From assembly GCF_011734195.1 (NCBI RefSeq), contig NZ_JAANTH010000002.1, positions 620,001-684,000 of the forward strand: a stretch of DNA of 64,000 nucleotides. The letters run 5' to 3'. The position numbers and the translations under genes were made by a program. Below the pieces are notes generated by a model. It was given only the letters and a program-made list of their open reading frames with translations. It was not told the origin of the DNA and ran no database searches. This DNA is from Halobacterium sp. R2-5 (GTDB lineage: Archaea; Halobacteriota; Halobacteria; Halobacteriales; Halobacteriaceae). Shown here in pieces: positions 5,350 to 40,704 of this stretch; within the stretch, counting starts at the first letter, position 1, and each line of letters begins with the position of its first letter.

Positions 5350-6132
5350 ATGCGAAAACAGATTGCGGCCATCGCCGTCGCGGCGCTGCTCGTCTTCGCC
5401 GGCTGTTCGGCCGGCGGGGACGGCGGAGCGACGACGACCGCGGCGGAGACCACGGGCACGACGGGTGGCGACGCGAGTCCGGTGTACGAGTCACCGCTCG
5501 ACGGGCAGACGGTCGCGGAGAACCACGAGGCCGTCGTTCGGGACGCGGGCACGTTCACGCTCGTCTCGACGTCGAACCAGACACAGGGCGAGCAGTCGTT
5601 CGTCGTGAACTCCACGACGGCCGTGGACCTCGAGTCCGGCGAGTACTTCTCCCGCCAGGAGGCACAGGGCCGGAGCGTCGAGGAGTACGGCTACGGCAAC
5701 GACACGGCGTTCCGGAAGCTCTCCGTGGCGTCGGGCGAGACCCAGTACTCGGTCCCCCAGCAGACCCCGAACACCTCCCAGTTAGCGGGCAGCCAGATCG
5801 CGTCGTTCGTCGACGCGTTCTCGCTCTCGCACACCGGCACTGAGTCCGTCGACGGCACCGAGACGCACGTCTACGAGGCGTCCGGCGTCGAGGACCTCAA
5901 CGACTCCGCGCCCGGCTTCTCCCAGATCGACGCGGACAACGTCACGGCCATCGACGCGCAGGTGTACGTCACCGACGACGGCCTCGTGAAGCGGTTCGCG
6001 TACTCGCTGTCCGTGTCGACCGAGCAGGGCAACGTGAGCCTCGGCGTCGACCAGCGCTACGCCGAGGTCGGCTCCACAACCGTCGAGCAGCCGGCGTGGC
6101 TCGACGACGCGCGCGAGAACACTTCGGCCTGA
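5350..6132 (+). CDS. Secreted lipoprotein, LolA/LppX-like fold possible
   Basis: The 260-residue protein begins with a Sec-type signal sequence and a lipobox (VFAGC), then a threonine-rich linker, as in haloarchaeal lipid-anchored surface proteins. The rest is predominantly beta, with phrases such as DAGTFTLVSTSNQTQGEQS and TAVDLESGEYFSRQEAQG, recalling haloarchaeal lipoproteins with a LolA/LppX-like half-barrel. The function is unknown. The ATG at 5350 was chosen because the signal sequence starts there; the frame stays open far upstream only as an antisense artefact of the genes on the other strand. Confidence 0.75.
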   Translation: MRKQIAAIAVAALLVFAGCSAGGDGGATTTAAETTGTTGGDASPVYESPLDGQTVAENHEAVVRDAGTFTLVSTSNQTQGEQSFVVNSTTAVDLESGEYFSRQEAQGRSVEEYGYGNDTAFRKLSVASGETQYSVPQQTPNTSQLAGSQIASFVDAFSLSHTGTESVDGTETHVYEASGVEDLNDSAPGFSQIDADNVTAIDAQVYVTDDGLVKRFAYSLSVSTEQGNVSLGVDQRYAEVGSTTVEQPAWLDDARENTSA

Positions 6133-11209: not shown

Positions 11210-12196
11210 ATGACCGACGACGACACCCGCGAGAACGTCCTCCCGGGGTCCGACGGCGAACTGGACACCGCGGACGTCCGCGGCTACGACTTCCGCGGCG
11301 ACTTCGACTTCTTCGAGATGCTGGACGCGTACGCGACCACCGGCTTCCAGGCGACTCACCTCGCAGAGGGCGTCGACATCGTCCGCGACATGCAGGACGA
11401 CGACGCCACCGTCTACCTGACGTTTACGTCGAACATCGTCTCCTCGGGGCTGCGGGAGGTGCTCGCGTACCTCGTCCGCGAGGGCCACGTCGACGTCATC
11501 ATCACCACGTCGGGGTCGCTCACCGAGGACGTCATCAAGACCGCGAAACCGTTCAAGATGGGCGAGTGGGACGCCGACGAGGCCGCGCTCCGCGAGGAGG
11601 GTATCAACCGCCTCGGCAACATCTTCGTGCCCTCGGACCGCTACGTCTGGCTCGAAGAGTACCTCTACGACTTCTTCGACGACTTCTTCGCCGAGGAGAA
11701 GGTCCGCACGCCCACGGAGTTCGCGAAGGAGCTCGGCGAGACTCTCGACGACGAGGACTCCATCCTGAAGAACGCCGCCGACCAGGACGTCCCCGTGTTC
11801 TGTCCGGCGCTCACGGACGCCGAGATCGGGAACTTCCTCTACTACTACCGGCAGGGCTACGACTCCGAGGTCGGCATCGAGATCGTCGACGACTACGACA
11901 CCCTCATCGAGGAAGGCCTGCTCGCGGATACGACGGGGCTCATCGCGGTCGGCGACGGCGTCCCCAAGCACCACGCCATCATGACGAACCTCTTCCGCGG
12001 CGGCGCCGAGTACGCCGTCTACGTCTCCACCGGCATGGAGGGCGACGGCTCGCTGTCGGGCGCTCCGCCCGAGGAAGCCGTCTCCTGGGGGAAGATCAAG
12101 GACGACTCCGAGACCAACTACACGCAGATCGAAGCCGAAGCCACGCTCGTCCTCCCGCTGCTGGTCGCCGGCGCGTTCGAGCGGGACTCGGAGTAG
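11210..12196 (+). CDS. dys: Deoxyhypusine synthase family protein
   Basis: The 328-residue protein aligns with deoxyhypusine synthase along its length: GFQATHLAEGVDIVRDM, LTFTSNIVSSGLREVLAYL, VDVIITTSGSLTEDVIKTAKP, then GDGVPKHHAI and a C-terminal EAVSWGKIK...ATLVLPLLVAGAF. The enzyme transfers an aminobutyl group (from spermidine, or in halophiles probably via agmatine) to a lysine in aIF5A. In my hand alignment the residue matching the human catalytic Lys329 is Gln306 (Thr305 just before), not Lys. Alignment around this two-residue insertion is uncertain. It is monocistronic, followed by the cloverleaf repeat. Confidence 0.85.
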   Translation: MTDDDTRENVLPGSDGELDTADVRGYDFRGDFDFFEMLDAYATTGFQATHLAEGVDIVRDMQDDDATVYLTFTSNIVSSGLREVLAYLVREGHVDVIITTSGSLTEDVIKTAKPFKMGEWDADEAALREEGINRLGNIFVPSDRYVWLEEYLYDFFDDFFAEEKVRTPTEFAKELGETLDDEDSILKNAADQDVPVFCPALTDAEIGNFLYYYRQGYDSEVGIEIVDDYDTLIEEGLLADTTGLIAVGDGVPKHHAIMTNLFRGGAEYAVYVSTGMEGDGSLSGAPPEEAVSWGKIKDDSETNYTQIEAEATLVLPLLVAGAFERDSE

Positions 12197-12244
12197 TTCT
12201 GTTCCGCGGGCGACGTAACGGCCTTCTGCTGTTCGTTCTCCTCG

Positions 12245-12487
12245 GAAGCCCCGAAGCTGTGGACTCGGGAGGCTCGCTGCGCGCTCCCTCCGGTCGCGTG
12301 CTTACTTCGCCTGCCTTCGTCCACAGCTTCGCCCCTTTCAGTCCGCCCGCTACCGGCTGACCGACCGGCTACGGGTGGACTGAAAGGGGCGGGCCGCTCG
12401 CGCTTGCGTGGTCGTCTCGGCGGCCGCTATCTGCGAGCGGAGCGAGCAGATATGCCGGCGAGCGACCGCGAGCGGCCCGGGGCTTTC
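12245..12487. repeat. Cloverleaf inverted-repeat element, copy A
   Basis: In this non-coding stretch I find a short outer stem (AAGCCCC at 12246-12252 with GGGGCTT at 12479-12485) and three consecutive hairpins. Left arm: 12252-12264 with 12319-12331 (13 bp perfect). Central: 12331-12344 with 12377-12390 (14 bp perfect; extends to 19 bp with one G-T pair). Right arm: 12390-12402 with 12467-12479 (13 bp), holding a nested hairpin near 12429-12451. The stems share boundary bases, so not all can form fully at once. A second copy with the same plan is at 40371-40607. It may be a mobile-type repeat or a structured RNA; nothing in it encodes a protein. Confidence 0.75.
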
Positions 12488-12560
12488 GAGGTATCGAGAC
12501 CGAACGTGTCCCCCGTACACCCAGTCCTCCGAAGTGTAGCTGCTGCTCGCGAAACGAATG

Positions 12561-12591: not shown

Positions 12592-12771
12592 ATGGCCATC
12601 AAGCCCGACTACGTCAAGAAGACGGGGAACATCCTCATGGAGCGGTACCCCGACGCGTTCAGCCGAGAGGACTTCGAGCACAACAAGGAAGCAGTCACGG
12701 AGCTGACGAACGTGGAGTCGAAGCCGGTCCGCAACCGCATCGCGGGCTACATCACGCACAAGCGAAACTAA
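12592..12771 (+). CDS. rps17e: 30S ribosomal protein S17e
   Basis: The 59-residue protein reads [20 protein letters not shown] at the start and ends [12 protein letters not shown], which is archaeal S17e, a small-subunit protein found only in archaea and eukaryotes. Archaeal S17e is about 60 residues, so it is complete. The gene is followed 49 bases later by asd, an arrangement I recall from other haloarchaea. The TATA-like box at 12561 points to a start with almost no leader. Confidence 0.93.
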
Positions 12772-40306: not shown

Positions 40307-40370
40307 TACGCGGTTCTGACTGCGGAGTCTGGGTTTTGAGCAGTGACGACTTCGAGGATGTGAACACTTC

Positions 40371-40607
40371 GAAAGCCCCGGCGGGCTCGCTGCCTGCGGC
40401 TCGCTGCGCTGCGGTGCTTACTTCGCCTCGACTAGCGAGCCCGCCGCCCCTTTCAGTCCACCCGTGCTGGCTGACCAACCGGTAGCTGGATGGACTGAAA
40501 GGGGCGAGGCTGTAGACGAAGGCGCGCGACGTAAGCACCGCAGGAACGAGCAGAGCGAGTGACGAGGAGCACAGCGAGCGCACCGAGTCTACAGCCTCGA
40601 GGCTTTC
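40371..40607. repeat. Cloverleaf inverted-repeat element, copy B
   Basis: The same plan as copy A: outer stem GAAAGCC (40371-40377) with GGCTTTC (40601-40607); left arm 40379-40391 with 40434-40446 (13 bp perfect); central stem 40446-40460 with 40491-40505 (15 bp perfect); right arm 40505-40517 with 40587-40599 (13 bp perfect). The central stem is nearly identical to copy A. The left-arm stem sequence is unlike that of A, yet both pair perfectly. The right arm read in reverse resembles the left arm of A. It lies between the GNAT gene and priS. It encodes nothing recognisable. Confidence 0.75.
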
Positions 40608-40704
40608 CGGGGTATCGAAACCGACAGAGTACGTGATGCGGGACGTGTCGACGCGGTGCCGTTTCTAGGCCGAACTTACCACGAGCCACGAGAGAGACGA
40701 CACG

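Follow-up and report, generated by a model that had tools for sequence, protein, structure and literature searches.

The window analysed here, a 64,000-nucleotide stretch of the genome of Halobacterium sp. R2-5, contains two copies of a composite element of about 250 bp, copy A at about 12236-12495 and copy B at 40363-40615. Copy A is flanked by a deoxyhypusine-synthase-like ORF, whose end is at 12196, and by a small ORF that begins at 12592. Neither copy is overlapped by a credible gene, in agreement with the first-pass annotation, which had described a non-coding element whose arms are unrelated to genes. In both copies, a terminal inverted repeat of 17 bp (consensus AACANCNN-GAAAGCCCC) leads into a hairpin arm; the conserved central hairpin (GCCCCTTTCAGTCC.../...GGACTGAAAGGGGC) comes next, and beyond it stand another arm and the terminal repeat in inverted form.

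In copy A, the left terminal inverted repeat, placed by its sequence and the consensus of 121 elements, occupies 12236-12252, with the inner part GGAAGCCCC at 12244-12252. The sequence, the fold and the arm register locate the 12-bp stem of the left arm at 12253-12264 (5' half, GAAGCTGTGGAC) and 12319-12330 (3' half, GTCCACAGCTTC). The core scan places the core CCCCTTTCAGTCC, which is the left half of the central hairpin, at 12332-12344 on the plus strand, and the inverted core GGACTGAAAGGGG, which is the right half, at 12377-12389 on the minus strand; from sequence and fold, the spacer between them (12345-12376) makes up the end of the central stem and the loop. The stem halves of the right arm, located in the same way as those of the left, are at 12391-12402 (5' half, GGGCCGCTCGCG) and 12467-12478 (3' half, CGCGAGCGGCCC); its interior, 12403-12466, holds a conserved ATATC-type nested hairpin, recognised by the fold and by the types of arm interior. 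The right terminal inverted repeat GGGGCTTTCGAGGTATC follows at 12479-12495 (sequence and consensus). Similarly, in copy B, sequence and consensus place the left terminal inverted repeat AACACTTCGAAAGCCCC at 40363-40379 and the right one at 40599-40615. The left arm (40380-40445, stem GGCGGGCTCGCT/AGCGAGCCCGCC) and the right arm (40506-40598, stem GAGGCTGTAGAC/GTCTACAGCCTC) are defined by sequence and fold, and the central hairpin (40447-40504), with cores at 40447-40459 and 40492-40504, by the core scan and the fold.

The predicted fold of 12236-12500 consists of an outer stem, a left hairpin, a central hairpin, and a right hairpin with a nested hairpin, which is the three-hairpin layout that had been read from the letters. 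The minimum free energy of this segment is -181.6 kcal/mol, against -125.2 ± 5.4 kcal/mol for 200 dinucleotide shuffles (z = -10.4), none of which folds as well; for copy B (40365-40625) the corresponding z is -6.9. Pairing beyond chance, as originally claimed, is thus seen in both copies. Some details of the first description have to be revised. The three hairpins are there, but the arm stems, given as 13 bp, are really 12 bp long in a fixed register. The 7-bp outer stem is real, but it is only a piece of the longer terminal repeat, so copy A extends to about 12495. The recurrence reported at 40371-40607 is copy B, but a plan credited with two copies is in fact found in hundreds of places.

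Anatomy and stem covariation of the family

The unit of the family is a half-element of about 111 bp (9 + 88 + 14 nt at the median arm length), which is made up of a terminal repeat, a hairpin arm with a 12-bp stem, and a core. Two inverted half-elements with a common central hairpin form the cloverleaf of about 250 bp; half-elements also frequently stand alone, most of all in the genus to which G188 and G386 belong. Both terminal repeats are present in 101 of the 121 facing-pair elements. Each end is about 17 bp long, with conservation that fades farther out, and between the ends lie an arm, the core, a spacer of 25-37 nt, the inverted core, and the other arm. The arm begins directly after GAAAGCCCC and stops one G short of the core. 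An identical register and a 12-bp stem are seen in 318 of 336 arms, and the hairpin foot is GAAAGCCCC / GCCCCTTTC in nearly all of them.

Watson-Crick pairing in the arm stems reaches 0.87 in register, compared to 0.20-0.28 when the two halves are slid out of register. Stems of at least 8 bp are found in 62% of arms, compared to 1% after the arm halves are shuffled between elements. Most stem positions show three or four pair types; the sole near-invariant pair is the eighth, which is nearly always T-A (298 arms). The pairing of the arms is probably under selection, and the sequence of the stems is nearly free. When stem mismatches are read from the end toward the core, A.C is commoner than G.T (p = 0.014 over the outer ten pairs, and more strongly at the inner two), as scored per half-element in a sample whose related sequences are not independent. 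This asymmetry hints that the opposite strand of each unit acts as the fold. Among the arm interiors, two types are seen, a common GTGCTTGCGTCG type and one of ATATC type, in which a nested hairpin is conserved; the right arm of copy A belongs to the latter. No element among 96, or among 37 in a second set, had the same arm on its two sides; with about 2.9 such cases expected in the second set, an avoidance of identical arms is only suggestive.

Several lineages show local variants of this plan. In genome G044, 5 of the 30 copies listed are armless, and the consensus end is matched only 4 times, so the end in this genome differs from the consensus. At the G044 loci L378-L407, an extra conserved GC-rich module of roughly 40-160 bp stands after the core, and the family thus has lineage-specific extensions. 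Many copies (L086, L087, L097, L104, L118 and others) have a small GGAAGACTCACTGCGTTCGTCTTCC-related hairpin at one fixed point behind the core. At L133 (500-850), and also at L128, L131 and L134, single units are immediately preceded by tandem repeats of the left end, up to seven of them, spaced 54-57 bp apart.

Distribution and genomic context

The exact core CCCCTTTCAGTCC occurs 17 times in the R2-5 genome and is present in 12 of 13 Halobacterium genomes; it was found in none of 13 genomes from other genera of the same family. A wider search of haloarchaeal genomes, which the first-pass annotation had proposed, detected the exact core in 219 of 391 Halobacteria genomes, belonging to 63 of the 86 genera, and counted as many as 85 cores in a single genome; these counts use exact cores and are minima. 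The core pattern read backwards, which served as a control, is almost absent across the class. A facing core pair was found in at least 120 stretches of named genomes, all of them haloarchaeal. The carriers include Haloarcula, Halonotius, Halorarius, Haloterrigena and others, and plasmids also carry the element. A viral origin was considered and rejected: the viral contigs together yielded only 8 exact matches.

By a simple ORF call, 61 of 70 usable elements are intergenic. The neighbouring genes are arranged in tandem in 36 cases, divergently in 19 and convergently in 5, so that convergent pairs are depleted, and a predicted start codon typically follows an element at a distance of 80-120 bp. 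Near the 121 elements there is no recurrent gene family or transposase; the sites are ordinary intergenic ones. In the Halobacterium genomes G010 and G011, and also in G008, a chromosome zone of about 1 Mb is free of any element (736-1780 kb in G010, p = 0.005; 757-1757 kb in G011, p = 0.0006).

The first-pass annotation knew no named element with this layout, and the searches agree with it. Rfam gave no match at its gathering score within the window, and no Rfam family, transposase or recurrent neighbouring gene accounts for the element. Of the outcomes that the first-pass annotation had set as refuting its reading, none was seen: further copies are many, the folding exceeds that of shuffled sequence by far, and none of these searches ties the element to a known insertion sequence. 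Open-access literature searched by sequence and subject held nothing that describes the element, the nearest being work on SMR and PATEs, and a full-text match to four pieces of element sequence returned no haloarchaeal paper among the matches listed, 20 out of 42. The repeat family is large and, apparently, undescribed and unnamed, although it is present in most haloarchaeal genera and reaches dozens of copies in some genomes.

Arm turnover, dispersal and rearrangement

The arm and orthology statistics come mostly from Halobacterium. An orthologous locus often holds the element in several species and lacks it in others; many copies are common to several species, and element-free orthologous sites exist. 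In the close Halobacterium clade, 132 of 147 same-side arms at orthologous loci are less than 0.85 identical, which means that about 90% have been replaced; the flanks of the compared loci are recognisably orthologous, at 82% or more. Some arms have changed sides. The right arm of copy A matches the left arm of G015 at the same locus with 0.97 identity, a flip at locus B between G015 and G016 has an identity of 0.96, and other flips reach 0.92 and 0.99.

Near-identical arms are also found at unrelated loci. The arm pair of copy B recurs at other Halobacterium loci, and the same arm pair is found with unrelated flanks in Halonotius, in the MAG QS_6_64_34 (L323) and in Halobacterium. In addition, the two bases that precede GAAAG in the terminal repeat are near-fixed within each genome (26/26 AA, 24/26 CA, 9/9 TC and 5/5 AC) and differ between genera, so the copies within a genome have been homogenised or have recently spread.

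Other repeats lie within or around some copies. At L323 (~450-530), the core of one copy is interrupted by a palindromic insert, about 75 bp long and ending in TACGGATTATTGTAG..., which is probably a different small mobile element. At L295, two larger repeats with ends GTGTTTAGTTAGGCGATT / AACTAAACAC (about 160-460 and 5560-5800) lie 5.5 kb apart, and each holds a cloverleaf element, or part of one, inside.

Several chromosome rearrangement breakpoints sit at elements. One junction in G011 connects the right flanks of loci A and B. The R2-5 loci L003 and L004 are reciprocally rejoined in G011 and G017, the left side of one leading into the right side of the other, with a truncated element at one junction in G011 and a hybrid element at the corresponding junction in G017. 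The original neighbours of L003 and L004 are kept in more distant species.

Interpretation and comparison with known systems

The search for a mobilising enzyme gave negative results. Y1_Tnp (PF01797) has no match in the R2-5 genome (G000), G010, G012, G016 or G044, the last of which has 69 cores, and genomes with Y1 are often without the element; a Y1/RAYT transposase was therefore rejected as a necessary partner. The serine recombinase PF00239 is missing from the R2-5 genome, G010, G014 and G016, and was rejected as well. No transposase with matching ends, parent transposon or autonomous, gene-carrying version was found in 0.93 Mb around elements, and terminal repeats lead to a core in 218 of 226 cases, with 8 of 226 lacking one. 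Long-range stem matches, considered as signs of an autonomous version or of an ORF in the arm, proved to be two neighbouring copies. No clear target duplication was seen, direct repeats beside the ends being hardly better than in shuffled flank pairs, and none of the loci compared showed a recent insertion matched by an entirely clean empty site.

The observations to be accommodated are the conserved anatomy, the dispersal, the repeated arm pairs, the lineage-fixed ends, the replacement and flipping of arms, and the breakpoints. It is likely, with a probability of roughly 0.64, that the repeat is non-autonomous and structure-conserved, and that it moves and recombines at the DNA level. A putative enzyme would recognise the terminal repeat and the hairpin foot, and would copy or move the element into intergenic DNA without target duplication; element copies may also recombine with one another, by which arms would be swapped as whole hairpin cassettes.

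The breakpoints, the arm exchange and the armless copies, which resemble hairpin collapse, would also suit old palindromic repeats that have no dedicated enzyme and are kept alike by homologous recombination, template switching within palindromes and genome rearrangement. This account is unlikely, since the lineage-fixed terminal dinucleotides and the whole copies at unrelated loci require copying to new sites, and ends of 17 bp and cores of 13-14 bp offer little length for efficient homologous recombination. Plain homologous recombination or template switching could nevertheless lie behind part of the arm turnover. Purely as a hypothesis, the matched, lineage-fixed dinucleotide may be likened to the overlap of a site-specific recombinase. 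A dedicated DNA-shuffling system, in which the terminal repeat would be a recombination site, the species-fixed dinucleotide its crossover overlap, and an archaeal recombinase would flip and exchange arm cassettes between loci and rearrange the chromosome, is an improbable extension of this analogy.

The strong folding and covariation, and the position of elements between genes and upstream of start codons, might instead suggest a structured non-coding or cis-regulatory RNA, transcribed and acting through its hairpins on termination, on the stability of the mRNA or on the control of the gene downstream. Such a role is quite improbable. The element is symmetric and also found as half-elements, few copies lie between convergent genes, where a terminator would be expected, whole arms are exchanged between unrelated loci with no recurring neighbour gene, and Rfam gives no match. 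Moreover, the mismatch asymmetry of both halves of a composite element cannot come from a single transcript, as the halves are on opposite strands. The first-pass annotation had hinted at an RNA, for which support has not emerged so far; the evolution of the elements fits a DNA-level repeat better. An archaeal REPIN/BIME, whose single-stranded hairpins would be the substrate by which a Y1 (RAYT-like) transposase spreads it, would match the two inverted hairpin units in a larger fold, the high copy number, the intergenic sites and the recognition of one strand suggested by the mismatch asymmetry, but is very doubtful given the lack of PF01797 matches in the R2-5 genome, G010, G012, G016 and G044, the Y1 genomes that are often element-free, and a hairpin foot with no evident GTAG/CGTC tag.

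The family holds its shape while its sequence changes more rapidly than its position in the genome, the opposite of how ordinary mobile elements behave. Its elements coincide with chromosome rearrangements. With it one can test which enzyme would recognise the structured DNA, in what way gene order in haloarchaea is reshuffled, and whether the enigmatic SMR share the system.

Among known systems, MITEs are likewise short, non-coding and dispersed, with terminal inverted repeats (here the 17-bp AACANCNNGAAAGCCCC); unlike them, the present family shows no target duplication, and its arms differ greatly between copies. A parent transposon with these ends was not found in the 0.93 Mb covered. Integron attC sites have short conserved ends that flank a variable palindrome recognised by its shape. 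The ends around a variable palindrome resemble attC in this general respect; no integrase, cassette gene or core motif of attC is known for the repeat. REPINs and BIMEs are bacterial and RAYT-dependent, with units of 20-40 bp and a GTAG/CGTC tag. The cloverleaf repeat shares with them the inverted pairs of hairpin-forming units, the intergenic location and the many copies, but its units are about 111 bp long, several element genomes have no Y1, there is no GTAG/CGTC tag, and the stems are hypervariable.

Closer parallels are found in haloarchaea. PATEs are IS605 derivatives defined as being without terminal inverted repeats (PMC3119063); the cloverleaf repeat is similarly non-coding with palindromes near its ends, but has terminal inverted repeats. 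SMR-A of Haloquadratum walsbyi is about 110 bp long, has prominent terminal inverted repeats, does not duplicate its target and reaches tens of copies per genome; its mobilising enzyme is likewise not known, and it strongly targets the palindromes of IS605-type elements and PATEs (PMC3119063). Set against the published description of SMR-A (HqIRS42, 43 and 55), the half-element of about 111 bp is alike in size, terminal inverted repeats, lack of target duplication and tens of copies. The cloverleaf repeat differs in that it lies in ordinary intergenic DNA, not in IS605-type or PATE palindromes, and the published account of SMR-A (PMC3119063) describes no facing-pair cloverleaf, no fixed stem of 12 bp and no exchange of arms. 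Since insertion into IS605-type palindromes was not seen, and REPINs need a RAYT, the family is placed among small non-autonomous palindromic repeats, outside both SMR-A and REPINs. The best reading is that it stands nearest to SMR and REPINs and falls under the definition of neither.
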